49,005 nt of DNA from a virus. Positions 2,951-47,536 of the stretch are shown piece after piece. How positions within the stretch are numbered: position 1 is the stretch's first letter; the number at the start of each line of letters is the position of its first letter. Below the pieces are notes generated by a model. It was not told the origin of the DNA and did not search any database. It worked only from the letters and a program-made list of their open reading frames with translations. The stretch lies in IMG/VR virus record IMGVR_UViG_3300048592_000344, positions 1 through 49,005 of that record; one strand, written 5' to 3'. The position numbers and the translations under genes are program-made.

Positions 2951-2957
2951 GTGGCGA

Positions 2958-18230: not shown

Positions 18231-21155
18231 ATGGCTCTTGGAACCGTTCGGGCAAGTGGTGGGCTGCAGAACCAGCTTGTCAACGATCGCTCAAGCAGCA
18301 TCATGGCGGAAGCTACCTCCGGGTTGGGTGACTCGGTCAACAGGCTGGCACAAGCAGGGGTGGGCTTTCTTGACTCTCGCACGGATATCGAGGCGGTGTA
18401 TGACCGCCGGGCTATGGCAAGCAAGGCACTGGAGTTGGACACGCAATTCCTGCAGTATCAGCAGGATCGAGCAAAAGAATTCACAGAGTATTCTCGCGGT
18501 CGTTCGGCTAACCCAGGCGGAATGACGAAAGAATATGATGCTATGCTGGCGGAGCAGGAGAAGGCGTTTCTCGAAACCGTGCCTGAGCGGCATCGGGAGG
18601 AAATGGCGGCTAAGCTGGCGAGAGACAGGGCGACCAGAGTTGGCTCGGCTTTTGCGGCAGAGCTCGAGCTGCTTGACACCGCCGACACCAACACCCTGAA
18701 CAAGGGGTTGAACACCCTTGGCTCTGGTCTGAAAGGTGGAGGGGTTTCACTTGAGGACGCCGAAGCTCAGTGGATTGAAATGGTGGAAAAGTCGGCGCTG
18801 CCGGAAATCACCAAACAAGAGTTTATTGAAAGCGGGAAGGCCACGCTGCAAGGACTGGACTTTGGCACGGCGGTGGAGCAAACCGCTCTTGGCTACGGCA
18901 GTGCTCGACAAGGAGATGACGGAGGCGACGTTGTAGCAGCGGGGCTTCTGCCCCAAGACAGGGGGGTGCTGAATGCCATCGCGGAAAACGAAGCTCCTGC
19001 TTATAACGTATGGAACGGAGGTTCCACCTTTGCGGGGTATGAAGATCACCCTGCGGCGACGAGCAAGGCGCCAGGCGAAAGCACAGCTGCTGGCCGTTAT
19101 CAGTTTATTCTTGGGACGTGGCGGGCGGCCTCCGAAAGCTATGAACGAACCTATGGAGTGAAGGTGCCGGACTTCTCCCCGGAGTGGCAGGATAGGGTTG
19201 CGCTGCACTGGGCGGAGACGCAATTCAACCGGCACTACAGCGGGGCTACGTTTAAGGATATTTTGGCAAGTGGTGATCCGCAACAGCTCCTGATCATCCG
19301 GGACGTGCTGGGCAAGCCTCGTTCGGACAACCCTAATGACCTTGAGTGGAAAGGTCTAGGGCATATGAGCGATGCTGAGTTCATCGAGATTATGACAGGG
19401 CAGAAAGGCTTTGCCGGAGGTGGGACTGGCCCGGCGCAAGGACCGAATGTCTGGACCGATCCTCGCTATGCCAATCTTTCCCTGGAGCAGAAGCAAAGCT
19501 TTGCAAATGCTGCGGCAGCTGCGGCTGAGCAGCAGAAGCAAACCATGGCGAATGAGATCAAACTGCAACGTGAAGCCATGCTCGACGGGGTGTATGAAGC
19601 TGGCTATCGCAACGACCAGAGCTTCGTCGAAAGCATGGAAAAAGCGGGGCAGTGGGACGCTGACGCTCAGGCTAGATTTAACTCTGGAAGAGAAGTCTTT
19701 CGTACCGCTGAAAGTGAAACGGCCAATGTCGGGGCGATGATTGCGGCGGGGACTCCTTTGGGCCAAGACCAACAGAAAGCCTTTGGTCGGTGGTTCGGTG
19801 CGGATAGCTTTGCTGGGATCGCAACGGGCGATGAGAAAGCCTACGCCAAGATGAAGTATGCGGTTAATCAGGCTCGGCTTTTCCCAGACGGATCGGTGGA
19901 TGCTTTCCGCGCGGCCATGGGGGTGCCTGAGACGCAGACGCAAGCACTTGCTTTTCTCGCGGCGGCCCATGCTGGCGACAGCACGTTGCTTCGCAGAAGC
20001 GGCTTTAGCCAGGAGGATGTGGCGCAGGTGCAGCTGTTTAAGCAGCTGGCGGAGCGGAGAGGAAGCATTGACACTGCGGTGGAAGACTTCCGCGCAGCTA
20101 CAGACGTGCAAGCTACCTCCGGCAAAACTCCAGAACAGTTGTCGAGCGAGGCTAGCAAGCTTTTCTCAACTAGTTTCCCAACTGTTGATGAGGTGGCAAA
20201 ACGGTTTGACGGCTGGTTTGTTTCCGAGCCGAACAGTAAGATCAACCCAAATACGGAAAGTCAGCTGATGCTGGACGCAAGCACCGCTTTCCAAGACGGC
20301 TACATGCGCTATGGCACTGAGGAAGCTGCTACCGCGTATATGGAAGCGTATCTGGATAAGATTTGGGGGACAAGTCAGACGGTGGTGCCACAGACGGCGT
20401 GGGGTCCTGGCGGCTTTGTTGCGGGAACGCAGCAGAACCCTGTGCTCATGCGCCACCCTCCGGAGAACCATTACGTTGGGGCGGATGGAGACCTTGGTTT
20501 CCTCTACTCCGCCATCAGCGAATACGCTGCCGCTGGCGGCGCCTCCCCCTACGGGGCAGTGCTGATCCCGGATGAGCAGACGGACCGTGAGGTCAGAGAA
20601 GGAAAGCTCCCGACTTACAAAGTGCTTGGCATGGGAGAGTTTGGCGAAGCCATTGTCCTGGAGGGAAGGTTCGGTGGACCTGAACTGCAATCTGGGCAAG
20701 ATGCTATGATGTCGGAAGAAGCACTGCGGAAGAACGCGGTGAGTAAGGTCTCAGCGAACGAACGGCAAGTGCTGGAGCTGGATGGAAAGATTGCCAAGGC
20801 CAAAGCTATGGGGCAAGCGGATGTTGTGAACGAACTGGAGTTGGAGAAGTCCCGCTTCGTTCAGCAACGAGATGCGGCGAAGTTGGCGGCGCAAGAGCTT
20901 GGCTACCTTACCGTGGTGCCGCAGGGCGAAGCGGATGAAACGGTGATTAATAACGCTGTGACCATGCTTGGAACGGCGATGCAGCAAGACCCTGCTATGT
21001 CGCAACGGGTAACGCAGTTGGCCAAGAAGCACAAGGGTATGTCGCCGGATGAGGCGAATAAGCTGGCGCTGGCTGAGGTCGTCGAAAAAGAAATGCGGAT
21101 CACGCCGGAAGATGCGCTGAAGGTGGTGGAACTTTACCTGGGAGCAAATGAATGA
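18231..21155 (+). CDS. Internal virion protein C (gp15-like) with embedded muralytic domain
   Basis: 974 aa ejection protein. Residues 1-235 are helical. Residues about 240-375 resemble the lambda R / GH104 transglycosylase fold: VLNAIAENEAP with probable catalytic E254, then FAGYEDHP, TAAGRYQFILGTW at 286-298 and a helical end. The remaining ~600 residues are helical with coiled-coil-like parts. It would cut peptidoglycan locally while the DNA channel forms. T7 carries its muralytic domain on gp16 instead. It overlaps the next gene by ATGA. Confidence 0.8.
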   Translation: MALGTVRASGGLQNQLVNDRSSSIMAEATSGLGDSVNRLAQAGVGFLDSRTDIEAVYDRRAMASKALELDTQFLQYQQDRAKEFTEYSRGRSANPGGMTKEYDAMLAEQEKAFLETVPERHREEMAAKLARDRATRVGSAFAAELELLDTADTNTLNKGLNTLGSGLKGGGVSLEDAEAQWIEMVEKSALPEITKQEFIESGKATLQGLDFGTAVEQTALGYGSARQGDDGGDVVAAGLLPQDRGVLNAIAENEAPAYNVWNGGSTFAGYEDHPAATSKAPGESTAAGRYQFILGTWRAASESYERTYGVKVPDFSPEWQDRVALHWAETQFNRHYSGATFKDILASGDPQQLLIIRDVLGKPRSDNPNDLEWKGLGHMSDAEFIEIMTGQKGFAGGGTGPAQGPNVWTDPRYANLSLEQKQSFANAAAAAAEQQKQTMANEIKLQREAMLDGVYEAGYRNDQSFVESMEKAGQWDADAQARFNSGREVFRTAESETANVGAMIAAGTPLGQDQQKAFGRWFGADSFAGIATGDEKAYAKMKYAVNQARLFPDGSVDAFRAAMGVPETQTQALAFLAAAHAGDSTLLRRSGFSQEDVAQVQLFKQLAERRGSIDTAVEDFRAATDVQATSGKTPEQLSSEASKLFSTSFPTVDEVAKRFDGWFVSEPNSKINPNTESQLMLDASTAFQDGYMRYGTEEAATAYMEAYLDKIWGTSQTVVPQTAWGPGGFVAGTQQNPVLMRHPPENHYVGADGDLGFLYSAISEYAAAGGASPYGAVLIPDEQTDREVREGKLPTYKVLGMGEFGEAIVLEGRFGGPELQSGQDAMMSEEALRKNAVSKVSANERQVLELDGKIAKAKAMGQADVVNELELEKSRFVQQRDAAKLAAQELGYLTVVPQGEADETVINNAVTMLGTAMQQDPAMSQRVTQLAKKHKGMSPDEANKLALAEVVEKEMRITPEDALKVVELYLGANE

Positions 21156-24100
21156 ACGACATTTTCAAAAGGCTGACGCTTCCGGGGGCTGACGCAGCTG
21201 AGCTCAAGCCCAGCTTTGTCGAGACCATCGGCTCCGCTTTCAATCTCGAGAACGATGTTGCCAACCTCTACGCGCATCTGAACAAGCCGGTGTTTCAGCC
21301 CGATCCTACCTTCAACTTCATGTCGGAATTTAAGAAGCGTCAGCTGCCGGTGGATTGGATGGTGCCACTGGCTGGCTCGCAATCGGTGCAGGAATTTGAC
21401 ACCACGCTGTCCCGGATGCAGAAGGAGTATCAAGATCGGGCGGTGCTTGCGGCGAGCGGGTGGAAGGGGACTGCAGCGGCGTTTGCGGCGGGAATGCTGT
21501 CTCCGACTGTGTTCATTCCTATTGCCGGGCAGGCGAGAGGAGCGAAAGGGATGTCGCAAATTCTGGCGCTTGCGGCTGCTGGGGCAACGGCGCAGAATGG
21601 CGCGCTTTTCCTGAACCAGGAGATAAGGTCGGAAGCGGAGCTCTATGCCGGAATTGCGCTAGACACAGCTCTGCTTGGACTGATGGGGGCGGCATATCTC
21701 CGGATGACGAGACCAGCTCGGGCGCAGGTGCAGGCAGCTATCACGCTTAACCAGAAAAAAGTGGACGTGCCGGTTGGTGAACCTGATCTTCCAATTTTGC
21801 ACGAGCAGTCAGTTCGGGTGGAAGCACCAACTGCTGCTGAAGTAAAAATGGAAGCAAGAGCTGCTGGTATTCGTGATCCTGAGCAAGTCGCGGAAATGAT
21901 GGATGAAGCGGAGCCGATGACATACGTTCCGCTGAAGGATCGGGCACTTACGATTGGTCAGCCCAAGCGTGTCAAAGCCAAGGACATCGAGACGCAGATG
22001 GCCTATGGCGGAAGCTACCTCGAGGCGCCTGTGGCCGAAGATGTTATGGCTCGATTTGTCAAAGTTCCAGTGGGGTCTGGAGGCAAGTGGTTTGTCGGGG
22101 GCGAGTATGCTATCACCCTTCACCGGGCAGACGGAACTGAGATCACACTTCCGCTTGGGGCTGTTGACACTCACATGAAGGCAGGCAGAACTCCCTATTT
22201 CAAGGAAGCGGAACTGAAAGAAGCCCTCGCCAACGGTGAACTTGACGACCAGCTTTACACTATGCTTGAAGCGGCGGAAGACCCTGGTATGGCTCGTTCC
22301 ACGATGGAAACGCCCATATCCAAACCTGCCGACAATGGCAAAGCTGCAGACACCCAAGCGATCGGCGCCGCACCCAGCCGGACGCGGAACACTCTCGGCC
22401 CGAAGCCAGCGCCGAATAGGGTTAGCCAGGCCCTGATGAATATGCTGGGGAAAATGTCACCCAGCTATCGCATGTTCAGCCAGCGGCTATTTCCCTCGCT
22501 TCGCAACGGTATTGCCAAGTTAGATAACTCCGGCATCCAGCAAGCGGGGCTGGAACAGATGCAACCGTCGGCAGACGGCGGCACGGTGATTGAGCGTATC
22601 CGAGCCTATGACGCCTATGTCGTCTCGTTCGCCAAGAAGCTTGACCAGCACTACTACGACTATGTGTATGACGGAGCCAAAGGCGCTGACATGAACATGG
22701 CGGCGTTCACACAAATCCGTTCTCAGTTTGGGAAGATACCGCCAGGCAAACTTAACTGGACGGAGTATAAAGCTGCAGTGTTTGAGCAGCTGAACACAGG
22801 GGAGATTAAACCCGAGCTTGCTCCGGCTGTGCAGGAGTTCAAGAAGTTTTTCGAGTTCTACAACAATCGGCACAAGCAATATTTGGCGGAGATGGAAGCG
22901 AAGGGAATTGAGGTCGAACCGCTGTATAAGGAACTGCTGGACGATGACCTTGGACCGGACGTGAAGAACTACGCCCACCATATCTTTGACCAGCAGAAGC
23001 TGATGGAGAACTTCTCTCAGTTCCTCGAGGACTTCGGCAAGGCTTATGAAAAGTCGCTGCAAGAAAGCTTTGACAAGGGAAGGAAGACTTATCTCAAGCG
23101 GAAGGAGAAGCTGGAGTTTGAGCAGCTGATCAGTCAGCTTGACGACGCCGAGATCAGCACCCGGCTTGCGGACACGGAAGCGGAGATTGAGTTTCTCGAT
23201 GAAACGCCGGAGCTCCAGGGCTTCAACACCCAACGCCTTGCTCTGAATAAGCAGGCGAAGGAGGAGGGTTGGCCCAAGGAACAGCTGAAAGCAGCGCAAA
23301 AAGACTTGGCCGATAGCATCACTGCCGACACTAGACTTCTGTTGGATGAGCGGAAGCGGTTGCTTGGCGTGGCCAGGGCGTTGAAGAAGTTTGGCGGGGA
23401 CGCCACCGAACGGACAACTAAGCTGCGCGCGGAGCTTGACAGGACCAACGAACTTATCGCGGAGATGTTCCGGACGGAGCTGCCCAAGATCGCAGCGGTT
23501 GACCTGAATATTGAGAAGATACAGCTGAAGGGGGATAAGGCCCTCGCCCCGCTCACTCGCCAGATGACAAAGGTCGTCAAGGAGATGGAAAAGCGGACGG
23601 CGGCTATGCAGAAGTTGATCGCCAGCAAGCGGAAGAACCCAGTGTCTGGGGCAAGGTTAGATGAGCAAATGGCTCGATCGCTTGAGCGCCATCAACGCTT
23701 GCTTGATCGGATTAAAGCGGTGGAGGGACAACAGGTTGCGCTGGACCAGCGGCTGCGTGAACTGCAGTTGCTTCGGGAGGATGTAATCTCTGACGCTACG
23801 CTGCTGGTTCGGTCGAGGGCGGTTCGTGCTGAGGCAACGGAAGAAAAGCTGGAAGCAGCTGCTGCGAAGATTATTCCGCCGGAAGAAAAGCTGCGGATGC
23901 GGGATCAGATTGGAAGAGAGCTGGAAGACCTTGAGGCGGACTTCCGAAACACCTGGAGTTTGCGCGGAGAAAATTCAGGTGACCCTATTGCCACGACCAC
24001 ACCCAACTTCAGGGAGAAGGCGTTGGAAATGGCGACGATGCTGCATCAAAAACTGACCAACACAGAGGTGGAACTGTCTCCCGCCTACCATGCTCTGCGA

Positions 24101-25837
24101 CAAGATGCTCGCGGCGCCGAACTCATGCGCGTGATGAACATCCCATTCGGCATGAAAAAGAAGTGGCTGATTAATGATGTGGAGCTGGTGACCAGGGCCT
24201 ATGACCGGACAATGGCACCGGACCTGGAGATTTGGCGAGCCTTCGACGGCAGCGTTAACGGTAAGTCCTTGCTGGGTGAGATGGCGCAAGAAGCCACGGC
24301 GCTGATGACTCGGATCGGTTCGGCCAAGTATGTCAAGCTGCCGAAAGGATGGGTGGACAAATCCGCTGCTTTTGCAGATAAGGTGAAGAAGCGTCTGGAT
24401 GACTTCGGAGCTATGGACGAACTGCATCTGGAGGAGAAAAACTTCTCCGACACGATGGAGGAGGGGTTTGTGGAACTGACCCCGGAGCTTCGGACGCAGC
24501 TTGGCAACTATGTATCCAACGCTACCAAGGCTATGACTCGGGACTTTGACGTGGCGATCCAGCGGCTTCGGATGACGCGGGGTGTGCCAAGGGATGGAAC
24601 TGATCCGTGGTGGAGAGCAGGGCGGTTTATCAAAAACGTCAACGTGGTGACGATGATGGGGGGAGTTGTCACCTCGTCTATCTCGGACGTTGCGAGGCCG
24701 GTTTGGCAGCACGGCGTTGGCCGGGTGTTTCGTCACGGCTGGGCTCCCTTCATTAACAAGCTTGACCCGAAGGCGAAGGAGTTCCGGCTGAAGTCAAAGG
24801 AGATCAATAGGCAGATTGGGCTTAACCTCGAGCCGGTGCTGCATAGCCGGGCGCAGGCGGTGTTTGACCTGGCGGAAGATAGCATTGGTCGGACGAGGCT
24901 GGAACGCGGCGCTAACGTGCTGGCGCAGAAGATGGGGCTTGTGGCATTGTATGACTTCTGGACAGCTGGAATGAAAACCATTGCTGGGAACGTGACTCAT
25001 GCTACGATGGCAGCGTATGTTCCGGCGGTGGCGAAAGCGTGGAGGGAGGGAGCGGAGTTCTCAGGCGACCTCTTGCAAATGCGGACGTATCTGCGGAACC
25101 TTGGTTTGTCCGACCTGGACATTCATAAGATCGCCCTGCAGATGGAGCGGCCAGACGGCGTGGAAGTTTTCTCCAACGGTGGGGTGCTGCCGAACGTTCA
25201 TCTGTGGGATGATCCCGCTGCCTATCAGGCATACCAGGCCGCCGTGCTTGGGGAGGTAAACAAACTTATCGTAACACCAGGGCTTGAGCGTCCAAACTGG
25301 ACCGACGAAAACATGGGCTTCTCCATGCTAGCCCAGTTTAAAAGCTTCACCTTCGCCAGCAACTCTCGCATGGCAATGTCGGCGCTCCAGGGCAACGACC
25401 CATACCTCATGCAAGGCATCGCCTTTTCCCTTGCCTTGGGGGCGCTTTCCTACTATACTTACGCAATGACAGTTGGAGGTAAAACTCTCGAAACCGCAAA
25501 TCAGATGGAACCTGACAAGTGGATTTGGGAGGCGGTCAAGCGGAGTGGGATACTCGGGGCTGCCAGCATCGCAGCGGATGTTGGGGCTGAAATGCCGTTG
25601 ATTACCGGGGATGATACTCCGGTTATTTTCCGGAGGCCTGGTGGGATGCTTGGAACGTTGCTCGGCCCGACCTATTCCCAGGCGGAAAGAATGGCGGGTG
25701 TGCTCACCAACCTCGACGCGGAAGATCAATCGCGCAACATGAGAGCGATCCGGCAGATGATCGTGCCGTATCAAAACCATTTCATCTTCCGGCAGCTCTT
25801 CGACCGTGTGGGTGACGCAATGTATGGAGACAACTGA
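21152..25837 (+). CDS. Internal virion protein D (gp16-like)
   Basis: 1561 aa, the largest gene. It has hydrophobic segments near residues 108-195 (AAAFAAGMLSPTVFIPIAG, LDTALLGLMGAAYL), a very long charged helical and coiled-coil region at about 620-930, and a mixed C-terminal half. Order (gp14, gp15, gp16), size and helical content fit the T7 gp16 ejection protein that extends the tail across the envelope. I see no lytic transglycosylase motif at its N-terminus, consistent with that activity sitting on the gp15-like protein. Confidence 0.8.
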   Translation: MNDIFKRLTLPGADAAELKPSFVETIGSAFNLENDVANLYAHLNKPVFQPDPTFNFMSEFKKRQLPVDWMVPLAGSQSVQEFDTTLSRMQKEYQDRAVLAASGWKGTAAAFAAGMLSPTVFIPIAGQARGAKGMSQILALAAAGATAQNGALFLNQEIRSEAELYAGIALDTALLGLMGAAYLRMTRPARAQVQAAITLNQKKVDVPVGEPDLPILHEQSVRVEAPTAAEVKMEARAAGIRDPEQVAEMMDEAEPMTYVPLKDRALTIGQPKRVKAKDIETQMAYGGSYLEAPVAEDVMARFVKVPVGSGGKWFVGGEYAITLHRADGTEITLPLGAVDTHMKAGRTPYFKEAELKEALANGELDDQLYTMLEAAEDPGMARSTMETPISKPADNGKAADTQAIGAAPSRTRNTLGPKPAPNRVSQALMNMLGKMSPSYRMFSQRLFPSLRNGIAKLDNSGIQQAGLEQMQPSADGGTVIERIRAYDAYVVSFAKKLDQHYYDYVYDGAKGADMNMAAFTQIRSQFGKIPPGKLNWTEYKAAVFEQLNTGEIKPELAPAVQEFKKFFEFYNNRHKQYLAEMEAKGIEVEPLYKELLDDDLGPDVKNYAHHIFDQQKLMENFSQFLEDFGKAYEKSLQESFDKGRKTYLKRKEKLEFEQLISQLDDAEISTRLADTEAEIEFLDETPELQGFNTQRLALNKQAKEEGWPKEQLKAAQKDLADSITADTRLLLDERKRLLGVARALKKFGGDATERTTKLRAELDRTNELIAEMFRTELPKIAAVDLNIEKIQLKGDKALAPLTRQMTKVVKEMEKRTAAMQKLIASKRKNPVSGARLDEQMARSLERHQRLLDRIKAVEGQQVALDQRLRELQLLREDVISDATLLVRSRAVRAEATEEKLEAAAAKIIPPEEKLRMRDQIGRELEDLEADFRNTWSLRGENSGDPIATTTPNFREKALEMATMLHQKLTNTEVELSPAYHALRQDARGAELMRVMNIPFGMKKKWLINDVELVTRAYDRTMAPDLEIWRAFDGSVNGKSLLGEMAQEATALMTRIGSAKYVKLPKGWVDKSAAFADKVKKRLDDFGAMDELHLEEKNFSDTMEEGFVELTPELRTQLGNYVSNATKAMTRDFDVAIQRLRMTRGVPRDGTDPWWRAGRFIKNVNVVTMMGGVVTSSISDVARPVWQHGVGRVFRHGWAPFINKLDPKAKEFRLKSKEINRQIGLNLEPVLHSRAQAVFDLAEDSIGRTRLERGANVLAQKMGLVALYDFWTAGMKTIAGNVTHATMAAYVPAVAKAWREGAEFSGDLLQMRTYLRNLGLSDLDIHKIALQMERPDGVEVFSNGGVLPNVHLWDDPAAYQAYQAAVLGEVNKLIVTPGLERPNWTDENMGFSMLAQFKSFTFASNSRMAMSALQGNDPYLMQGIAFSLALGALSYYTYAMTVGGKTLETANQMEPDKWIWEAVKRSGILGAASIAADVGAEMPLITGDDTPVIFRRPGGMLGTLLGPTYSQAERMAGVLTNLDAEDQSRNMRAIRQMIVPYQNHFIFRQLFDRVGDAMYGDN

Positions 25838-28971: not shown

Positions 28972-29318
28972 TCCGGTTTCTTGCGTCACTGTTGGGCGGG
29001 GGTATCCCCGCTCAGCTTCGCCAGGCCTACGAAGCAAAGCTTGCCGCGCAGAATGATGCGGAACGGATTGCGGCAGAGGTGCAGATTGCTAAGCTGGAAG
29101 CGCGGCAGGCAAGCCATACGATTGCTGGTCGGTGGATCACACTGGTGCAAATCGCATGGGCGCTTCCCTTTGTGATTTACAATGCAAAGCTTGTGCTGTG
29201 GGATAAGGTGTTGGGATGGGGGGTGACTGACCCCCTATCACCAGAGCTTTATAGTCTGCAAAGCGTCATCGTTGGTTTCTTTTTTGTTACAACGACGATC
29301 AGAGGGCTGGCTCGCTAG
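28968..29318 (+). CDS. Membrane lysis-cassette protein, 116 aa
   Basis: Amphipathic charged N-terminal half (AYEAKLAAQNDAERIAAEV) followed by hydrophobic segments (WITLVQIAWALPFVIY and LQSVIVGFFFVTTTI). It could be a second holin or a spanin-like accessory. It is the last rightward gene; its stop overlaps the stop of the converging gene (CTAG shared at 29315-29318). Confidence 0.6.
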   Translation: MIRFLASLLGGGIPAQLRQAYEAKLAAQNDAERIAAEVQIAKLEARQASHTIAGRWITLVQIAWALPFVIYNAKLVLWDKVLGWGVTDPLSPELYSLQSVIVGFFFVTTTIRGLAR

Positions 29319-29746
29319 GTCTTGTGATCCAGCGGCGGCTTGTTGAACGTGCAAAGTTTCTCCAGGTCGGTGTAAGGTTCTGCTTCCAGCTGTAACTCAA
29401 TCAGCATGAGCAAGCAGACAATCTCATGGGCGACGTGGGGAAGGTTACTCTCAGGATCAATTGACTGTAAAGTAAACACCCTGTCGTCTTTGTGCTCGAG
29501 CAGGCGGGCTTGGCGGTGACGTTCGGCTGCCTGGAGATAGCGGGCGGCGGCGTTTGGAACTTTGCGCCAACTGTGCTCCTCGTATTTGATGGCACCATAC
29601 TCAAGCGTTGCTTGGACCAAGCGAAGAGCTCGCTGGAAGCCGACCTGGAGTAGGTCGGGGCGAGGCTTGCCTGCGTCAGCTTTGAAGCGCTGGCTTTCAT
29701 GGAACGAGTCAAGCTGGTTGTTTTCCAAGATGTATTCTTTACTCAT
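29315..29746 (-). CDS. dATP/dGTP diphosphohydrolase-like (MazG-related) protein
   Basis: 143 aa. The pattern FKADAGKPRPDLLQV, LEYGAIKYEEHSWR, ARYLQAAERHRQARLLE and LPHVAHEIVCLLML fits the dATP/dGTP diphosphohydrolase N-terminal family, all-helical relatives of MazG. It probably trims the nucleotide pool by hydrolysing dNTPs or modified dNTPs. The related MazZ supports 2-aminoadenine genomes, but no PurZ-like gene is present here. It is the last leftward gene, coupled to the helicase-like gene by ATGA. Confidence 0.75.
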   Translation of the reverse strand: MSKEYILENNQLDSFHESQRFKADAGKPRPDLLQVGFQRALRLVQATLEYGAIKYEEHSWRKVPNAAARYLQAAERHRQARLLEHKDDRVFTLQSIDPESNLPHVAHEIVCLLMLIELQLEAEPYTDLEKLCTFNKPPLDHKT

Positions 29747-30945
29747 TGATAGGGGTTCCTTTCCTTGGCTGTGTAAAGCATTCCCTCTCCCTTCTCCGCC
29801 ACCGCCCGGATCATGTCGGCCTTCTCCATCAGGTCAATGATCCGTTCGACTGCGTGGGAGGGAACACGCTGGGAGATAAACTTGATTAGCAGGGAACGTG
29901 GCGCTCCCTTCTTGTAGCGGGCCTTGAACTGGAAGAGCATGTGCCAAGCTTCCTCCATCACCTTGCCCTCGCCCCCATTGTGCATTGCTTTGAAGATTTC
30001 GGGAATGTGGGCCTCAAGGTCGAAGAGCCAGTCCATGGCCTGCTGGATGTGCTCGACGGTGATGACGAGGGAGTTGCCCATGCTGACGCAGGCAACCTGA
30101 GATAGCTTGAGTAGGTGGGCGCTGCGGCGGGACAAGTAGTGGAGAAGTTTGGGGTGATCCGGGACGGGTTGCTTCCCTGACATGTGCCAACTGTCGATGA
30201 ACTCAGCGGCTTCTTCGGTGAATTTAATCTCTCCGTAAAGATTGCCGATCTCCCGCATGTCGGACTCCATCTTACTTTGCATAGCCATGTCTTCCTTGCC
30301 TTGGCTGAAAAGGGACTGAACTTTGACATCGGCGTCGTAGACGAGCATGGTGCGGGAAAGAAAGCCTTGATCCCAGGCGCCCTCTGGTAGCAGTTGGACG
30401 AGGGAAGACGGGGTGGTCCCTGCGACGAAGTTGATCTGTGGGCGAGGGATTTCGATCTTGAGTTTGGCGGTGCGTTTGCGTTCGGTGAATGGCTCGTTGT
30501 CGTAGATGTTGGTGAGGACGCTCATGAAGTCGGTGGCGTAGTCAGGGATGAAGACGGTGAGCTCGCTGGCGATAACCTTGAGGGAATGAAACTCGATGGT
30601 GGGTGGATTGCGACCGGGGTGGATAAGGACACGCTGGGCGTCGTGCAGCTCGTCGATTAGAGAAGCCTTGCTAACGCTGCTTGCGGCGATCTTGTGTTCT
30701 TTCAGCTGGGACCAGAAGCGTCGGAGCTGGCCGAGCACGGCTGACTTGCCAACCCCAGGAGGGGCGACAAAGATTGTGTAGAGGTTTGGATACAACGGAC
30801 TGTTGTTCGTGTGAACCCAAACTTTTTGTTCCAGTGCTCCGGCGACACAAGCGATGCCCGCCCACCTTCGAAGCCTTGCTGGACTTCCCGTGTATTTGGT
30901 TAGCTCCTCGAAAGCAGCTACCCAATTATCTAGCTTTCGCACCAT
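29743..30945 (-). CDS. Primase/helicase-like P-loop ATPase (DUF3987-type)
   Basis: 400 aa. N-terminal ARLRRWAGIACVAGALEQKV and FVAPPGVGKSAV (Walker A at 61-68), then a SELTVFIPDYATDFMSVL region and a helical C-terminus with winged-helix character (LLIKFISQRVPSHAVERIID). This is the design of DUF3987-type replicative helicase/primase proteins in phages. It lies 2 bp after the polymerase gene. A separate primase domain is not visible. Confidence 0.7.
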   Translation of the reverse strand: MVRKLDNWVAAFEELTKYTGSPARLRRWAGIACVAGALEQKVWVHTNNSPLYPNLYTIFVAPPGVGKSAVLGQLRRFWSQLKEHKIAASSVSKASLIDELHDAQRVLIHPGRNPPTIEFHSLKVIASELTVFIPDYATDFMSVLTNIYDNEPFTERKRTAKLKIEIPRPQINFVAGTTPSSLVQLLPEGAWDQGFLSRTMLVYDADVKVQSLFSQGKEDMAMQSKMESDMREIGNLYGEIKFTEEAAEFIDSWHMSGKQPVPDHPKLLHYLSRRSAHLLKLSQVACVSMGNSLVITVEHIQQAMDWLFDLEAHIPEIFKAMHNGGEGKVMEEAWHMLFQFKARYKKGAPRSLLIKFISQRVPSHAVERIIDLMEKADMIRAVAEKGEGMLYTAKERNPYQ

Positions 30946-30947
30946 GC

Positions 30948-32555
30948 TTACAACTGCCGGATTGGGGTGTTTAGTATATTCTCGAAGGTTGCGAGGTGCT
31001 TGGGCGGTTTACGAGTTTCTTCCCCGGTCCACTTCTTTAGACCGAAAGGATTGTCCTCATCCGCCATACCGTAGTTCCAGCCTGCCTTAACGCCGTGGGG
31101 GATTGTGAATTCTCTCCCTTTAGCGAGGGGTAGAATGACGCGGAGCTGCTCAAGGATGATTGGGATGAGGGTTTGGATTTGGTCTTGTTTGACCATGAGG
31201 ACGAGGGAGTCGTGGACCTGGAGAAGGAAGCGGATGGGGAGGTTGTGAAGGTTGCGATAGCGCTGGAGGCGGATGGCACCACGGTTAATGAACTCGCCGG
31301 TGGTGGATTGAGGAGAGTAAGCGATGGCTGCGTTGTGCGTGGGGACTGCGTTGGGATCGTTCCAGAAGTAGCGGCGACGACCCCAAGGAGTTATGAGGCG
31401 ACGCTCCTCGCGAACCTGGCGAATGGTTTCTTGTTGCCAAGCAGGGATGACGGGGAATGCGCCGAAGTAATTCCGCTGGAAGTCAACGATGGTGGAGACT
31501 GGGAGATGGGCGTGCATAGCCATGGTGTTTGGCTGGCCGAGGTAGTTGGTGCCATGTCCGAGTTTCTTGGCCAGGTCGCGGTAGCTCAGCTCGCGATAGG
31601 CGTTCATCTCCGCCACCGCTTTGCAAAGCTTGGGGTCGAGAGACTCGGGCCAAGGTAGCTTAGGCCAGGCCATGCGGACGACAGTGGTGTGCAGGTCTCC
31701 GCTTTCGCAAGCGTCGAGGTAGCTGCCGGCCCACGCTTCGCCATGGCTCTCGACAAACCAGTTCCAGCCGATTGCTCCGACACCACGGCTATCGCCCTGC
31801 TCCAGGTCGATATCAACAATCATCCAGCCGGGGTCAGCGACAAACTGGTTCTTCATCTTGCCGGTGACGTTTTGGAGATTGGTGCCTGTGCCGGTGTCGG
31901 AGAAGCTGGAGTTGAGTCGGCCTGTCGTTGTCCCAGCGATGTTGAAAGAACAACGGATGTGGTTGTCTGGGTCAAGTTTGGTCCGAAGAAAGCCAATGGC
32001 TTTGCTTGCATCTCGCATGGCGAGAATAAAGTTGACAAAGACCTCGGCAAAGTAGTAGCTGCGGAAGCCTTCGAGGACCTCACGATCGGTTGTGACCTTA
32101 GCCTCATCCATACCCTTCTTCCGCTTCTTCTTCTCGGGAATTTGAAGCACGGTGTGGAAGAGGTATTGCACGTCCTTGGGAGAAGCAGGGTTGATGGGAA
32201 GGGCGGTGCGTCCGCCACTGCGTTTTGTGCGATCGGCAGGGATGCCGAGGCCCTCGACGCATAAGCGGGTGAAGCCTGCCTCGAGACGGGCAAGCTGCTC
32301 CTCGTAATGGGTTAGGGCCTTGCGCCGTTGGGCCAGGTCAACGGGAAGCCCCTCCAACATCATCTCAAGAATAACGGGAATGGTGTCGAGGGATGTTTGG
32401 TAGGTTGCCCGACTAACCTCGTCGAGCTGCGGCTCGATGACATTGATGACATCGTAGGTGACGCAACAATCTAGAGCGCAGTATGTCCAATAGATTTCGC
32501 TGTCCGTCATGGATGCGGCGGTTTCCTCTAGCGTTGTTGTATCGATGATAATCAT
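30948..32555 (-). CDS. polA: DNA polymerase I (family A), polymerase fragment with Exo III
   Basis: 535 aa. Residues 20-33 (IYWTYCALDCCVTY) carry the Exo III motif Y25-x3-D29 of a DEDDy 3'-5' exonuclease, whose Exo I and II are on the separate gene at 33236-34252. The palm and fingers follow: TGRLNS (211-216), motif A VDIDLEQGD (D248/D250), motif B RDLAKKLGHGTNYLG (326-340) and motif C LLQVHDSLV (H448, D449). All polymerase catalytic residues are present, so the fragment should be active, probably with the exonuclease fragment bound. No thumb or exo core precedes it. Confidence 0.9.
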   Translation of the reverse strand: MIIIDTTTLEETAASMTDSEIYWTYCALDCCVTYDVINVIEPQLDEVSRATYQTSLDTIPVILEMMLEGLPVDLAQRRKALTHYEEQLARLEAGFTRLCVEGLGIPADRTKRSGGRTALPINPASPKDVQYLFHTVLQIPEKKKRKKGMDEAKVTTDREVLEGFRSYYFAEVFVNFILAMRDASKAIGFLRTKLDPDNHIRCSFNIAGTTTGRLNSSFSDTGTGTNLQNVTGKMKNQFVADPGWMIVDIDLEQGDSRGVGAIGWNWFVESHGEAWAGSYLDACESGDLHTTVVRMAWPKLPWPESLDPKLCKAVAEMNAYRELSYRDLAKKLGHGTNYLGQPNTMAMHAHLPVSTIVDFQRNYFGAFPVIPAWQQETIRQVREERRLITPWGRRRYFWNDPNAVPTHNAAIAYSPQSTTGEFINRGAIRLQRYRNLHNLPIRFLLQVHDSLVLMVKQDQIQTLIPIILEQLRVILPLAKGREFTIPHGVKAGWNYGMADEDNPFGLKKWTGEETRKPPKHLATFENILNTPIRQL

Positions 32556-32893
32556 CTGCTGATCTCGGGGGGCTGGAGGTAGTTGACTGGTTTGCCTAGC
32601 TGCTTGGCCAGAGCAATTTCATATTGCACGCCTTTGGAAATGTCCCAACCGTCAAGCTTGAGCACCATCAAGCTGGTGCAGGCGGTGAGCATGGCGTCGT
32701 TGAAGTTCTTCCAGCTTTTGTAATCCGTGCCGATCATCTTCTCCATGCTCTTGCCGTAGACGATGGGGGAGAACATGGCCTCGCCGTTTTTAAGCCAGTT
32801 AGCCGTGACTATGCGAGCGAGCTCATAGCGAAGCTCACGGACGGCTGGGTTGGGGTGTGAGTAGGGTGAAGCGAGATAGATCAAAGGAGCCAT
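32552..32893 (-). CDS. DUF1937-type protein (nucleoside deoxyribosyltransferase-like)
   Basis: 113 aa. The start IYLASPYSHPNPAVRELRYE and the FSPIVYGKSM / SLMVLKLDGWDISKGVQYEI blocks match the DUF1937 family, which shares the fold of nucleoside 2-deoxyribosyltransferases. A nucleotide-salvage role or ligand binding is likely. It lies between the two polymerase halves, overlapping the polymerase start by ATGA. Confidence 0.75.
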   Translation of the reverse strand: MAPLIYLASPYSHPNPAVRELRYELARIVTANWLKNGEAMFSPIVYGKSMEKMIGTDYKSWKNFNDAMLTACTSLMVLKLDGWDISKGVQYEIALAKQLGKPVNYLQPPEISR

Positions 32894-33234
32894 GCGCGGT
32901 CTCTCCCGGTGTCGAGGAAAAGATGGGAAGGGATTTGGTAGCGTTCCATAATGGGGGAGAACTCTACGATCCAGTTTTCATACGGCACCTTGGTCGTGTT
33001 GACGCAGTGCATGAGATACTTCCGGACGAGATACTTGAGGAAGTTGACTGGATCGGGGCGGGCCTCGAACGAGGCGAGGGGGAACTTGCAGTCAAGGTCA
33101 AAGGTTCCGACCTCTCCGGTTTGAGTGTCCCGCATCTTCCTGGTGTAGATTTTGAAGAGGGTGAACTCTTGGTCCAGCCCTGCCTTGCTCCACGCTACGT
33201 AATCGCTTAGAAGCTCTGGAATATCCTCTGTCAT
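32881..33234 (-). CDS. Hypothetical protein between polymerase halves, 117 aa
   Basis: Starts MTEDIPELLSDYVAWSKAGL at 33234, one base after the stop of the exonuclease gene; the longer frame would overlap that gene extensively. Helical N-terminus, FTLFKIYTRKMRDTQTG beta region, C-terminal WIVEFSPIMERYQIPS. No family is recognised. It overlaps the DUF1937 gene by 13 nt. Confidence 0.7.
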   Translation of the reverse strand: MTEDIPELLSDYVAWSKAGLDQEFTLFKIYTRKMRDTQTGEVGTFDLDCKFPLASFEARPDPVNFLKYLVRKYLMHCVNTTKVPYENWIVEFSPIMERYQIPSHLFLDTGRDRAWLL

Positions 33235-33235
33235 T

Positions 33236-34252
33236 TCATTCGTCCTCTTTCTTGCCGCTGCGATCCGCAGCCCGTCTCTTGTGCATGAACTTCCAAGCCA
33301 GCTCCTCGGAATAGATGGAGGCCAGGAAGCCAAGGCCCTTGTCCATCTCAATCTGAAGAGCGTGGTGCATTAGCATGGTGTCATCGCGCCAACTCTTTGC
33401 GGTGATCCCCATAAAACGCCAAAGATATTGAACGTCAAATTGAAAATTCTGGCCAAACACGCGCTTCCCCTCGTGGTTGATGCAGCGCTCGACAAACTTC
33501 CACGCGATGCGTTCCTCGCGGGGAGTGACCCAATAGTTGCCGGTGGCTTTCTCCTGGTCGAAAAAGGGGATGACAATGGCGCGGTCAGGGGAGGGAGCGA
33601 TGCCGACACAGGTGATGAGTGGGTGCTTGGTCTCGATGTCCACGGACAAGCCGGGGGAGGGGAGGATGTAGTCCTGCCAAAAGGTTTCAAGGTCCTCTAG
33701 GCTGGGACGGAGGTGAATGAACCGGCGTGGGCGGATTATCTCGGGGAAGGATGACTGCCGCTTTGCCTTCATCAGGTCCATGATGAGGATGGGTTCCTGC
33801 TTGATCTCGGCAAGCACCGCGCGAGGGTGTAGGACAGGGAGGACCTTTCCCCCACCGCAGCTGGCGATGGAGGTAGTGATGCGACCGCGAGCGAATTTTA
33901 GTTTGGTCTGGTGGGTTAGCAGAAGCAGCGGCAGCTCCCCACACGCTATGATTACGTTGGGGCGGAGGCGGCGAATGGTGGTGTAGAGGTTATGGATTTC
34001 CGGACCGAACTCAGCGCGGAGATAGGCCTTGCGCCCGACAGCTGGGATGCCTGTGAGTGCGCCGCTCTTGCTTTCCTGGGTGAAAGCATAAAAGGAAGCG
34101 GCAGGGGTGTTAAGGCAATTAAGCCAAGTGCACTCGTCGGGGACGATCCCCGCCCGGCGAAGCTGGCCCTTGAAATATCCCCAAAAGCCATTAGTGAAGG
34201 GACGACCAGCTTCGTTAAGAGAAGGGTAGTCGGACAGGATAAGAATTGACAT
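33236..34252 (-). CDS. UDG-like + 3'-5' exonuclease fragment of DNA polymerase
   Basis: 338 aa. Residues 1-165 resemble the uracil-DNA glycosylase superfamily domain fused to some phage polymerases such as that of SPO1: ILSDYPSLNEAG, RPNVIIACGELPL and VLPVLHPRAVL. The usual GEAPG-type motif is SDYPS, so catalysis is doubtful. Residues 200-325 hold the exonuclease core: Exo I LSVDIETK (D205, E207), Exo II VFGQNFQFDVQYL (D273) and DDTMLMHHAL. Exo III is missing here and found on 30948-32555. The gene ends in a lysine/glutamate tail exactly where a fused polymerase would continue. Confidence 0.85.
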   Translation of the reverse strand: MSILILSDYPSLNEAGRPFTNGFWGYFKGQLRRAGIVPDECTWLNCLNTPAASFYAFTQESKSGALTGIPAVGRKAYLRAEFGPEIHNLYTTIRRLRPNVIIACGELPLLLLTHQTKLKFARGRITTSIASCGGGKVLPVLHPRAVLAEIKQEPILIMDLMKAKRQSSFPEIIRPRRFIHLRPSLEDLETFWQDYILPSPGLSVDIETKHPLITCVGIAPSPDRAIVIPFFDQEKATGNYWVTPREERIAWKFVERCINHEGKRVFGQNFQFDVQYLWRFMGITAKSWRDDTMLMHHALQIEMDKGLGFLASIYSEELAWKFMHKRRAADRSGKKEDE

Positions 34253-34268
34253 GCTTTGCCCCAGGTTT

Positions 34269-34303
34269 GATATGGTTTATTCCATGATGGAAACAGCCAT
34301 ATC
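34269..34303. promoter_or_regulatory. 35-nt operator-like element D
   Basis: Outer arms GATATGG / CCATATC flank the core ATTCCATGATGGAA. It fills most of the short gap between the ParB-methyltransferase stop and the exonuclease start, so it lies where a promoter or operator for the polymerase operon would be. Confidence 0.65.
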
Positions 34304-35639
34304 ATTCCCTCCGTTTAACCGCCTCCCTCAACACCAGTGCGTTTGCGTAGATTTCGGGAAGCGCCTCGATGCCGAGGACGAATTGCGGGGATGACTCTTC
34401 CGCCGCAAGGATGCTATTGCCACTGCCCATGGTGGGATCGAGCATTACAGTGGACTCGTCCACGAACATTCGGAAGAAGTGCTGGAGCATTGGGCGAGGT
34501 TTTTCGCTCGCGTGGATTTCCTTCGTCTTGGGGTGCGCGAATAGGTTAGACACAGCTTGGACGATCTTTCGATCGCCTCGTGAGCCAAAAAGGCAGACTT
34601 CGTAAACCTGCCGAGGTCCTCGTTGAGGGTCTGGGAGCACTCCGGAGTTGTCGCTGCGGTGCCAAATAAGTGGAACGGCAGCGACTTTCCACCCCATGTC
34701 CTCAAGGGCAAGGCGAGTTTGATGAACAATCTCGTGACGCGCGGATAACCAAAACATGAGGTGCGCGGACTCAGCCACTCGGTCGGCCATACAGAGTTTA
34801 AGGGAACGGAGGCACTCAAGGTAGAGCTCGGGGGTGTCGGCATACTTTCCAAGGAGGCCGGTGGCCCCGCCATTATGCTTGTCGTAGTTGATCCCGTAGG
34901 GAAAGTCGCAGTGGATAAAGTTGAACTTGGGGCCTGACCAGGGAGTGGTAGCCCACTTGCGAAAGTCGTCGTTGAGATAGGGGATGATCTTCTGCGGCTG
35001 CTCGACCAGCGGAAGCGTGGGCTCGTTTGAGCCGGGTTTGCGGGATGTAGGCTCGATCGAGGTGGGTTTGTTAAACACCGCCTCAAAAGCCTTATCGAGG
35101 ATCGTGGCTTCGTTGGCCTCGGCCCGCTGTTCCTTGCGGAGACAGATGTTGTGGGCGGTGACAAGGTTGTCCGCGCCGACTACGAGGGGTTCCTCCTTTG
35201 CCAGGTAATCGGCGACAAGGAGGTAGCGGCTGATGGAAGTGTTGGAAACGGAAAGGAGCTCTGCGGTGTCGGAAGCGGTCCAGCTTTCTTCGGTGCCCTG
35301 CTTCAACGCATGGAGGCGGGCGACGGCGGTGACCTCCTCTTTCCAGCTAAGCGCCTTTCGCTTGACGTTTTCCTCCAGTTCAATTGCCTCGAGCTCCTCT
35401 TGCGGGAGGTCGGTGGTAAACTGGACGGTGATATGGGTTAGGCCGAGGTGCTGGTGCGCGCGGAGGCGGCGTTCGCCCGCAACAAGAACACCGTCTGGCG
35501 TTAACACGATCGGGTGGATCAGTCCGAGGCTGCGGATGGAGGAAGCGAGCTCCTCGATGCCGGACAGTTCTTTCCGCTGCCGATCGGGGGAGACGGTGAT
35601 GGAGGAGATTGGATAGGAGCGGAAAGAACCGGAGAGCAT
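34302..35639 (-). CDS. ParB-like CTP-binding/HTH domain fused to DNA methyltransferase
   Basis: 445 aa from the ATG at 35639 with GAGGAA upstream; longer frames have no ribosome site. The N-terminal ~110 residues show a full ParB/Srx fold: LASSIRSLGLIHPIVL, the CTP-binding box GERRLRA and EENVKRKALSWKEEV. An HTH follows (SDTAELLSVSNTSISRYL). The C-terminal half is an amino-methyltransferase of permuted order: DFPYG (catalytic motif IV, with Phe instead of the first Pro), HASEKP, and motif I DPTMGSGNS binding S-adenosylmethionine. It probably methylates adenine or cytosine at sites chosen by the ParB/HTH part, protecting DNA or regulating transcription. Confidence 0.85.
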   Translation of the reverse strand: MLSGSFRSYPISSITVSPDRQRKELSGIEELASSIRSLGLIHPIVLTPDGVLVAGERRLRAHQHLGLTHITVQFTTDLPQEELEAIELEENVKRKALSWKEEVTAVARLHALKQGTEESWTASDTAELLSVSNTSISRYLLVADYLAKEEPLVVGADNLVTAHNICLRKEQRAEANEATILDKAFEAVFNKPTSIEPTSRKPGSNEPTLPLVEQPQKIIPYLNDDFRKWATTPWSGPKFNFIHCDFPYGINYDKHNGGATGLLGKYADTPELYLECLRSLKLCMADRVAESAHLMFWLSARHEIVHQTRLALEDMGWKVAAVPLIWHRSDNSGVLPDPQRGPRQVYEVCLFGSRGDRKIVQAVSNLFAHPKTKEIHASEKPRPMLQHFFRMFVDESTVMLDPTMGSGNSILAAEESSPQFVLGIEALPEIYANALVLREAVKRRE

Positions 35640-35646
35640 GGTTTCC

Positions 35647-35946
35647 TCAAACATCAAAAAGGGGGGTAAGCGAGCCTTCGAGGTCAGAGATTAACCCGCT
35701 GAGCTCGGAAAGGCTGATGGTGAGGGAGGAGATGTGTCCGTTCCCTTTGTAGTGGACGCGACCGCCATCTTCTACAAGCTCCGCTTTCGGTTGTGGACCG
35801 TAAAGCTGCTCTGCCTTGCGCTGGGAGCGGAGAAGTAAGGTGTGCAGACGGTCCTTACAGGCGTCCACAGTGTGCATGTATGCGGGGAAATTGCTTCCCT
35901 CTAAGTCAGCTTCAACAGCTGCGATGTTTGCGAAAGCCGGGCTCAT
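35647..35946 (-). CDS. Hypothetical protein, 99 aa
   Basis: Helical N-terminal half (VDACKDRLHTLLLRSQRKAEQ) and a beta/helix C-terminal half with a short acidic end. No family is recognised. It lies directly before the ParB-methyltransferase gene, separated by 7 bp, so it is probably cotranscribed. Confidence 0.7.
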   Translation of the reverse strand: MSPAFANIAAVEADLEGSNFPAYMHTVDACKDRLHTLLLRSQRKAEQLYGPQPKAELVEDGGRVHYKGNGHISSLTISLSELSGLISDLEGSLTPLFDV

Positions 35947-45453: not shown

Positions 45454-45486
45454 GGGAGCGAGCGAATGCGAGCTCCCGGGCGCTCC
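45454..45486. repeat. Overlapping hairpins across the repeat boundary
   Basis: GGGAGC (45454-45459) pairs with GCTCCC (45472-45477), and GGAGCG (45455-45460) can pair instead with CGCTCC (45481-45486). The two alternatives straddle the junction at 45475, where a packaging cut would fall if the repeat is terminal. Confidence 0.5.
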
Positions 45487-45529
45487 TATGGGGACAAAGG
45501 CACTAGGTCACACCCAATCTCGGTCCGGC

Positions 45530-45961
45530 CTACTCGGCGGGGAGTTCCGGGGTCGTCATCGACAACCCGGTGAGCATGTCCTCATGCTCTTTGAAGATCG
45601 TCTCGCGAAGGGCGGCGCGTTGCTTCTTGAGTTCGGCGCGCTTGGCGGCGGTGATGGCCTCGGCCTCGCTTGCACGGATGCGGTCGATCTCCTCCGTGTC
45701 CACGCGGGCGAAGGCCCATTTCAAGCTGATGCCGTCGTTGAAGTCAACATCGAGATCGACTTCGGTGACTTTGCAAACGGTGAGGCCGTGGCGGGTGCCG
45801 GTCTCTACGATGACGAGGTCATCCACGCGGATGGTCTGGTCGAGGGTTTTGAACTGGTAGCTACGAACCTCTCCCGGAGCCGGTTTGTCGTTGGGTTCGT
45901 AGTTGACCTTGATGAGACGGACCTGATCATTGATCAGGAAGACGATTTTGCTGCTGTCCAT
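45530..45961 (-). CDS. Second copy of 143-aa hypothetical protein
   Basis: Identical to the gene at 74-505. Its stop is followed by the hairpins at 45454-45486, the 14-bp inverted repeat and the putative terminator before the next leftward gene at 45298. Confidence 0.75.
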   Translation of the reverse strand: MDSSKIVFLINDQVRLIKVNYEPNDKPAPGEVRSYQFKTLDQTIRVDDLVIVETGTRHGLTVCKVTEVDLDVDFNDGISLKWAFARVDTEEIDRIRASEAEAITAAKRAELKKQRAALRETIFKEHEDMLTGLSMTTPELPAE

Positions 45962-45971
45962 AGGTAGCTCC

Positions 45972-46331
45972 TTAAGCTGGGATGAGGGTTGGGATGGTGA
46001 GGTCGTAAAGTTTGGCAATTTGCTCCATCGCGGAGATGAAGCCGGGGAGGTCGTCGGGACCACGAGCTTGGTCGTGTGCGTGCTGAAGTTCAGCGGCAAA
46101 ATCCACGTCGAAATCATCGGGGAGGTAATCTGTGATGCTTGCCACCCCCGCTGAGTTGCGTCTGTCCAATTCAAGCTGGGCTAAGGTTTGTTCATCCAGC
46201 AGAAGGCCAACGGCGCAATGCCGACCTGTGGTGGGATTAGTGTAGTAGCACCCTCCGTCTTTGGCCTGCGCCAAGCCACCCTGCTTTAGCATACCAAGGT
46301 AAGCCTTGTCAAACATCTCTTGCCGGGTCAT
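45972..46331 (-). CDS. Second copy of 119-aa hypothetical protein
   Basis: Identical to the gene at 516-875, including the ATGA overlap with its upstream neighbour. Confidence 0.75.
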   Translation of the reverse strand: MTRQEMFDKAYLGMLKQGGLAQAKDGGCYYTNPTTGRHCAVGLLLDEQTLAQLELDRRNSAGVASITDYLPDDFDVDFAAELQHAHDQARGPDDLPGFISAMEQIAKLYDLTIPTLIPA

Positions 46332-46570
46332 TTGTTCACCATGTTAAACTGGCCGAAGTGGCGAGTGCGGAAACGGATGCGGTCCATCACCTGAGCGGGG
46401 ATGGGGTCGGGATCGAGAGGGAGGTCAAGCAAGATCACCCACTCGCAAACCTTGTGGGCTTGCAACCCAGTGCGCCGCATGATCTCCACGCGACAACGAG
46501 CGCCTCGGTCGAAGGCGGTTGCGACCGCATGGGCCTCGCGGAGGGCGGAGATGAAAATGGAGGGGGTCAT
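46328..46570 (-). CDS. Second copy of 80-aa hypothetical protein
   Basis: Identical to the gene at 872-1114; start and stop both sit in ATGA overlaps. Confidence 0.7.
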   Translation of the reverse strand: MTPSIFISALREAHAVATAFDRGARCRVEIMRRTGLQAHKVCEWVILLDLPLDPDPIPAQVMDRIRFRTRHFGQFNMVNK

Positions 46571-46743
46571 TGCGGCAACTCCACATGGGCGACGAGGCAA
46601 TCAATCGTCTCCTTTTGCCCCCAATAAAACCACAGCCCTTTGCCCGCTCCATTGGTGATGGTGGCCGTGCGGGAGCTGCGCTTCTTCCAAATCGTGTTCT
46701 GGCGGCGGAAGTGTGCGCCGATTTTTACCTGGGCGAATGTCAT
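46567..46743 (-). CDS. Second copy of 58-aa hypothetical protein
   Basis: Identical to the gene at 1111-1287, again filling the gap between its neighbours exactly. Confidence 0.7.
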   Translation of the reverse strand: MTFAQVKIGAHFRRQNTIWKKRSSRTATITNGAGKGLWFYWGQKETIDCLVAHVELPQ

Positions 46744-46943
46744 GCTAGTTCCTCCCCCGCATTTGTCACTACCTCGTCATGGTCACGAAGCAGCGCGTTC
46801 CACTCGTCGGCGGCGTGTGCCATCCGAGCGATCTCGGCCCAAACGTGGGCGCGGCCCTCGTCATCCCCGTTCTCGAGGATGCGGCGGAGAAGGGGAAGGA
46901 CCTGGGTCCAAGTCGGGGTCATGTCGATGTATTGAGTTGACAT
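46740..46943 (-). CDS. Second copy of 67-aa hypothetical protein
   Basis: Identical to the gene at 1284-1487. Confidence 0.65.
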   Translation of the reverse strand: MSTQYIDMTPTWTQVLPLLRRILENGDDEGRAHVWAEIARMAHAADEWNALLRDHDEVVTNAGEELA

Positions 46944-46948
46944 AATGT

Positions 46949-47182
46949 TCACCCTGCGTTGAAAGAGCGGCAAAGCACTCTCGGGGTTTCAGCAAATGCA
47001 TGGCCGACACACTCGCAAGTGCTAAGCGTATCATCGACCCAGATCAGATGATCTTCGTCCCCCGCCTCATCTAGGGCCAGGCGACGTGCCTCGTCGGAGC
47101 TTACCGCCACGATAACGAAGCAATCAACCTCATCGTAGCCTACACGTCCGGTTCGGGAGATTTTAAAAATGCGCTGTTGCAT
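46949..47182 (-). CDS. Second copy of 77-aa hypothetical protein
   Basis: Identical to the gene at 1493-1726. Confidence 0.7.
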   Translation of the reverse strand: MQQRIFKISRTGRVGYDEVDCFVIVAVSSDEARRLALDEAGDEDHLIWVDDTLSTCECVGHAFAETPRVLCRSFNAG

Positions 47183-47183
47183 T

Positions 47184-47306
47184 TCAGTTCGCCTCGATCT
47201 TGAGCATGTAGTCATGCCGGTCCCAATCAATGCTGAGACCGAACACGCCGATGCCAACTGCGAGGGCGAGGAGGAAAGCGGCGAGAGCATCTGTGATGGT
47301 GTTCAT
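47184..47306 (-). CDS. Second copy of 40-aa membrane microprotein
   Basis: Identical to the gene at 1728-1850; one membrane helix and a GGAGTCC leader. Confidence 0.7.
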   Translation of the reverse strand: MNTITDALAAFLLALAVGIGVFGLSIDWDRHDYMLKIEAN

Positions 47307-47371
47307 GGTTTGGACTCCAATTAAAGTCCCCTTCGCGGGGACAGCGCTGGGCAGAGTGCGCCCATGCCCCA

Positions 47372-47400
47372 ACCATGACATGAAACGGGGCGAAAGTCAA
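47372..47400 (-). promoter_or_regulatory. Second copy of leftward promoter
   Basis: Same TTGACT / 17 nt / CATGGT arrangement as 1916-1944. In a linear molecule ending at 49005 this would be the promoter that feeds the right-hand early genes. Confidence 0.55.
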
Positions 47401-47536
47401 GAACTATTCGCGGGCTATGTCAGTTTGATATGGTCGATGCTAGGCGCGGCTGCTAGGGTGGTGTCAGGGCTTGGACACTGGTGGATGGCGGTGGCAACGG
47501 GCGGTGGCAACTGCGCGTAGCGCATAGCCCTGGTGG

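Follow-up and report, generated by a model that had tools for sequence, protein, structure and literature searches.

Phage genes split by homing endonucleases include nrdA of Aeh1 and, like it, the gp43A/gp43B polymerase genes of T4-type phages. In Aeromonas phages 25 and 44RR, the family-B polymerase is divided between gp43A and gp43B, two proteins that co-purify and are active, and a homing endonuclease is linked to the split in phage 25 (PMC2988022, citing Petrov et al. 2010). Where that review treats these phages, it describes no uracil-DNA glycosylase (UDG) domain and reports the split for a few related phages (PMC2988022). A family-A polymerase (PolA) carried by two open reading frames (ORFs) with a small ORF between them is found in the OM43 phages MEP401 and MEP402, where the break falls inside PF00476, the exonuclease is whole, and the authors considered an intron (PMC10580990). 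Here, we focus on a family-A DNA polymerase from the IMG/VR virus record IMGVR_UViG_3300048592_000344, analysed over its positions 1 to 49,005 (49,005 nucleotides; hereafter the window). Like 43A/43B it is a phage replicative polymerase in two genes, and like the MEP401/MEP402 enzyme it belongs to family A and has small ORFs between its parts. Unlike either, its break lies inside the exonuclease domain, dividing the exonuclease site itself, and in contrast to 43A/43B the split is fixed across a large and diverged clade.

The locus consists of genes for proteins of 338, 117, 113 (DUF1937) and 535 amino acids (aa), all on the minus strand and exactly where the original prediction had placed them (Table 1). 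A single base pair separates the stop of the 338-aa gene from the start of the 117-aa gene, which overlaps the DUF1937 gene by 13 bp; the last 4 bp of the DUF1937 gene are shared with the start of the polymerase gene, and a primase-like DUF3987 gene begins 2 bp past the polymerase gene. The genes form one tight operon, which makes co-expression of the two polymerase genes almost certain. Of the DEDDy motifs, Exo I (DxE) and Exo II (NxxxD) are on the 338-aa protein and Exo III (YxxxD) is on the 535-aa protein, so no single polypeptide has all three. We consider it highly probable that the two genes encode a replicative family-A polymerase of two subunits, with a proofreading site formed in trans, which was split once from a continuous gene.

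The 535-aa protein is a family-A DNA polymerase by profile, motifs and fold. It matched DNA_pol_A (PF00476) at 100.9 bits against a cut-off of 34.3 (Pfam) and phrog_17 with an E-value of 1.5e-44, and it carries YCALD, as described earlier, and all polymerase motifs. The AlphaFold2 model (predicted local distance difference test, pLDDT, 87.6) found the Bst polymerase fragment 1xwl as its best PDB match in Foldseek (E 1.3e-20), with Taq polymerase fragments also matched. It opens with a long helix at residues 18-43, which bears Exo III. The 338-aa protein matched DNA_pol_A_exo1 at 25.7 bits, with a cut-off of 23.6 (Pfam), and the phrog_17 'DNA polymerase' profile runs across both proteins: the 338-aa protein covers its positions 549-785, and the match continues at 802-1238 in the 535-aa protein (PHROG). 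A second complete polymerase gene was among the findings that the original prediction had named as speaking against it. The whole record holds exactly one PF00476 gene and one PF01612 gene, and no second polymerase of any other family was found among the 44 ORFs scanned. A direct terminal repeat of 3,549 bp (window 1-3549 and 45457-49005) has 10 mismatches, all in its first 18 bases; the record is therefore complete, either a terminally redundant genome or a circular assembly of about 45.5 kb.

Upstream of the exonuclease motifs, the 338-aa protein carries a second domain. The original prediction was right to read this gene as the exonuclease part, with Exo I (DIE) and Exo II (NFQFD) present as described, and overlooked a UDG-like domain at residues 3-148. 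On the single sequence, the Pfam score of this domain (23.2 bits) falls just under the cut-off of 24.3, while a profile match to Thermotoga maritima UDG in the PDB reached an E-value of 6.8e-23 and a Foldseek match to 1l9g one of 5.7e-9. Profile and predicted fold place the domain in the UDG superfamily; no UDG activity is claimed for it. Motif A reads SDYPS in place of GEaPG, and the motif B histidine is retained (LHPRA). The domain begins only at the equivalent of residue 35 of Thermus thermophilus UDG, so it lacks the N-terminal Fe-S cysteine pair of family 4.

A tblastn search over 50,697 phage records found the same split in only one isolated phage, Caulobacter phage Kuura, together with several phages that have a continuous UDG-Exo-Pol gene; at the DNA level, no related phage record was found. 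With scans of IMG/VR and GTDB included, 166 split loci were fetched, GTDB supplying five, all from metagenome-assembled bacterial bins. An alignment scan with the exonuclease half alone found at least 513 related stretches in IMG/VR. At 95% non-redundancy the set comprised 122 split and 26 fused sequences (148 together), so that both kinds of relative for which a search had been proposed exist. Of the split sequences, 121 belong to the clade of the window and one (L228) is an independent interruption; comparison with the uninterrupted homologues places the break within what is otherwise one enzyme. Residue conservation was scored by alignment columns, as counts of motifs by regular expression gave misleading failures and were dropped. 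Although the split homologues differ on average at 52-55% of positions, all 122 keep the D/E of Exo I, N/D of Exo II and Y/D of Exo III, along with the D, K and H/D of polymerase motifs A, B and C. Counting both proteins, the DEDDy residue set is complete in every case. With every catalytic residue kept in 122/122 non-redundant split homologues, chance is excluded.

The history of the split was approached with a 'quick' maximum-likelihood tree from which the breakpoint columns were left out. Sixty-two split rows fall on one side of a single branch (starred; Shimodaira-Hasegawa-like approximate likelihood ratio test 98), while the fused rows and L228 fall on the other. The split is old and clade-wide, with the split group as one clade set against its continuous UDG-Exo-Pol relatives. 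The other phrog_17 polymerases taken as outgroups are continuous or broken at other places, from which we infer that the continuous gene is the ancestral state. Other break places do occur in the family. In six fused-clade or more distant loci (L182, L202, L206, L207, L208 and L213), a second recurrent break lies at about residue 218 of the polymerase half near an NLQN motif, where it is made by unrelated small genes and the exonuclease domain is whole. A third, in phage ctLwi270 (L184, 1658-4364), follows Exo III, and here a zinc-ribbon-like reading frame separates the parts of the polymerase.

The gap between the halves is variable. At 12 loci it is -4 or -1 bp, the median is 514 bp and the maximum 5,080 bp; L064, a contig of 5.8 kb, has its halves on opposite strands. 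Nucleoside-2-deoxyribosyltransferase-like ORFs make up most of the gap genes (one family of 48 and another of 16), and the 117-aa-like family accounts for 13 ORFs. A deoxynucleotide kinase, MazG, PRA-PH and others are single cases. The original prediction had noted no intein, intron or homing endonuclease. This holds for the window, where the HNH gene is absent from the gap, and does not extend to the relatives: eight split loci (L012, L070, L081, L086, L088, L092, L147 and L154) have an HNH endonuclease gene between the halves. A 145-aa HNH ORF (phrog_3377, E 8.8e-28) interrupts the polymerase of L228, a member of the fused clade close to the continuous L223 and L225, at the very same joint, which lies between WK and the tyrosine of Exo III. 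Rfam gave no group I intron match in L228 and other broken loci.

Since L228 belongs to the fused clade and carries an HNH gene at the joint, an endonuclease gene has entered there at least once independently. With the HNH genes in the gaps of eight relatives added, it is likely, though not proven, that the fixed split goes back to a homing endonuclease. The split of this clade would have arisen a single time out of a continuous UDG-Exo-Pol gene, probably after insertion of an HNH homing endonuclease gene into a loop of the exonuclease domain, and would then have become fixed. The gap would later have been lost, kept, or filled by passenger genes, often of nucleotide metabolism.

How would the two proteins restore one active site? 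In the arrangement that we propose, the 535-aa subunit would provide the polymerase and the helix carrying Exo III, and the 338-aa subunit the UDG-like domain and the rest of the DEDDy exonuclease domain. Formation of the proofreading site would require the C-terminal part of the exonuclease half, at about residues 290-321, to pack on the helices at the start of the polymerase half, at about 18-60. Conservation within the exonuclease half is consistent with this, with a mean column value of 0.80 at residues 293-321 against 0.51-0.59 elsewhere. The structure predicted for this half alone is confident up to residue 292 and falls below pLDDT 50 over 293-338, and the protein ends 17 residues past the conserved WK; residues 293-321 are likely to be a docking segment. 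Between the halves, 40-45% of the 20 strongest couplings fall within exonuclease residues 285-325 and polymerase residues 20-60, a region that makes up 6% of pairs and received 0-10% of the top 20 in 16 shuffled pairings. In a Klenow fold, the Exo III helix would lie next to the stretch that follows Exo II. The focus of covariation matches this predicted contact, and its location alone supports contact between the halves. The halves are also co-inherited: their distances correlate at 0.78, compared with 0.49 and 0.70 between the primase-like neighbour and the exonuclease and polymerase halves, respectively.

Several points weigh against this account. Coupling strength between the halves is no higher than in an exonuclease-primase control, and the coupling region was picked partly after seeing the first run. 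The low pLDDT of residues 293-338 could stem from a shallow alignment, which had 24 rows and did not include Kuura. The quick tree includes two long outgroup rows of the fused kind, and the HNH genes could have entered a gene that was already split, a doubt that a review of T4-type phages raises in the same form (PMC2988022). Finally, binding and activity are inferred from the sequences. Even so, a fixed split enzyme that needs assembly, as originally proposed, best accounts for the clade-wide split, the six invariant exonuclease residues, the conserved C-terminal stretch that is predicted to stay unfolded on its own and the location of the couplings. Both proteins most likely contribute to the proofreading site, which would make this an obligate two-subunit PolA.

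The new ends created by the break differ from the joint of the fused relatives, which is short (WKDEG...WxYN) and has no N-terminal MkIIxT segment. Exonuclease halves of the split clade finish with a charged tail (KKEDE, KRDE), and the polymerase halves open with the consensus M-K/R-I-I-x-T, with I at position 4 in 88/119 and T at position 6 in 80/119. As a guess from these sequences, the MkIIxT start and the KKEDE-like tail may be docking elements. A bolder suggestion is that the split is useful and not merely tolerated, with binding and release of the UDG-bearing subunit toggling proofreading, perhaps guided by uracil or modified bases, and with the conserved new ends serving in docking. We think this unlikely.

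An improbable alternative is that the exonuclease half acts apart from the polymerase, for instance in UDG-like DNA binding or repair, with the exonuclease dead or unimportant and the Exo III residues kept only for structure. The separate UDG-like domain would fit such a role, as would the loci in which the halves lie 5 kb apart (L152) or on opposite strands (L064). What counts against it is the pattern of conservation: the acidic residues that bind metal, like the tyrosine of Exo III, are invariant in 122/122 despite the divergence of these proteins, while the UDG motif B histidine is present in only 93/122. Selection therefore guards the exonuclease rather than the UDG.

The functional enzyme could also be a single chain. 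Phage polymerase genes often carry inteins and introns, and the halves might be joined after transcription or translation by a trans-spliced split intein, a split intron, or frameshift or bypass. Group I introns have been described in phrog_17 polymerases (PMC11878797), and the polymerase half of one relative (L024, 4575-6421) holds an intein-like insert of about 280 aa shortly after motif A, starting with CLTADHEVLTPDGW and ending in VTGN-S. Rfam gave no match in the window, however, at E up to 1 within 30000-35000, and the tails are too short for natural intein halves, with 9-19 aa after WK and 8-29 aa before Exo III. The 12 loci whose genes overlap by 4 or 1 bp have no space for an intron, and other loci have complete genes between the halves or halves 5 kb apart. 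With no fit for an intron or an intein, and with loci where the gap is missing altogether, joining by splicing is excluded in practice, and we regard a single-chain enzyme as very improbable. Breakage of one gene by recent pseudogenisation, assembly error or sequencing error is refuted by the relatives and has a negligible probability: single frame breaks occur in the family, as in L035 (967-2438), where the polymerase half lies in two frames at about residue 385-404, possibly through a sequencing error, but the same breakpoint with intact genes on both sides recurs at 121 non-redundant split-clade loci, isolated Kuura among them.

Returning to the two-subunit enzyme, the one isolated phage found with a counterpart is Kuura (OQ067476), which has the same order of UDG-Exo half, two small genes and polymerase half. 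The Kuura proteins are about 34-36% identical to those of the window, its exonuclease half was deposited as a 'hypothetical protein', and the paper on this phage never uses the word 'split' (PMC9959647). The fused UDG-Exo-Pol proteins of Microcystis phage Mel-JY34, ctMlz233 and Desulfofustis phage LS06-2018-MD01 share the domain order and have similar neighbours (in Mel-JY34, a DNA methylase upstream and a DUF3987 primase-like gene downstream), but each is encoded by one continuous gene without MkIIxT at the joint. Vibrio phage VS-ABTNL-3 and Bacillus phage Goe2 have gene-interrupted polymerases of the same broad family, by an HNH homing nuclease in Goe2. In both, the interruption is in the polymerase domain and the exonuclease domain is whole.

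Split phage polymerases are thus known, whereas a two-subunit family-A class cut through the exonuclease appears to be undescribed. In the open-licence literature, we found no report of a polymerase exonuclease active site divided between proteins or of a whole clade fixed for one; the splits described there lie at other points of PolA or belong to other families. The class spans a large group of mostly uncultured phages, in which the exonuclease half is likely to be labelled hypothetical. Because fused relatives, a relative with an HNH gene at the joint, split loci that do or do not carry HNH genes, and gapless loci can all be compared, a standing question can be put to the test: how the pieces of a split polypeptide come together again, and what makes a split permanent. 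If an exonuclease depends on a second subunit, it would also be well suited as a means of turning PolA proofreading on or off.

Table 1. Coordinates of the split polymerase locus, its motifs and its conserved neighbour in the window.
Feature	Position	Strand	Remarks
Exonuclease half, 338 aa	33236..34252	-	UDG-like domain and first part of DEDDy 3'-5' exonuclease domain
UDG-superfamily (family 4-like) domain, residues 3-148	33809..34246	-	From profile and fold matches
Exo I D-I-E (D205, E207)	33632..33640	-	Invariant in 122/122 split and 26/26 fused homologues
Exo II N-F-Q-F-D (N269, D273)	33434..33448	-	N and D invariant in 148/148
Residues 293-321 of exonuclease half	33290..33376	-	Its most conserved stretch; candidate docking segment
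117-aa intervening gene	32881..33234	-	No Pfam or PHROG match; homologues at 12 other split loci
DUF1937 / nucleoside 2-deoxyribosyltransferase-like gene, 113 aa	32552..32893	-	Pfam, PHROG
Polymerase half, 535 aa	30948..32555	-	Exo III helix and complete family-A polymerase domain
Exo III Y-C-A-L-D (Y25, D29)	32469..32483	-	Y and D invariant in 122/122 split homologues
Polymerase motif A (D250, DLEQGDSR)	31785..31808	-	D invariant in 148/148
Polymerase motif B (R326...K330...Y338)	31542..31580	-	K in 122/122 split
Polymerase motif C H448-D449	31209..31214	-	Invariant in 148/148
DUF3987 / primase-like gene	29743..30945	-	Conserved neighbour directly downstream; Pfam, PHROG

Beyond the genes of Table 1, the gene directly upstream of the polymerase operon (34302-35657) encodes a ParB-like N-terminal domain fused to a DNA methyltransferase, and several of the fused relatives likewise have related ParB or methylase genes upstream. 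A small gene lies just downstream of the primase-like gene (29315-29746). A dATP/dGTP diphosphohydrolase N-terminal domain is present among the ORFs of the window and may belong to this small gene, which would suggest control of the deoxynucleotide pool beside the polymerase. Two very large ORFs of 974 and 1561 aa occupy the structural region (18231-25837), the second of which is possibly a virion-internal protein.

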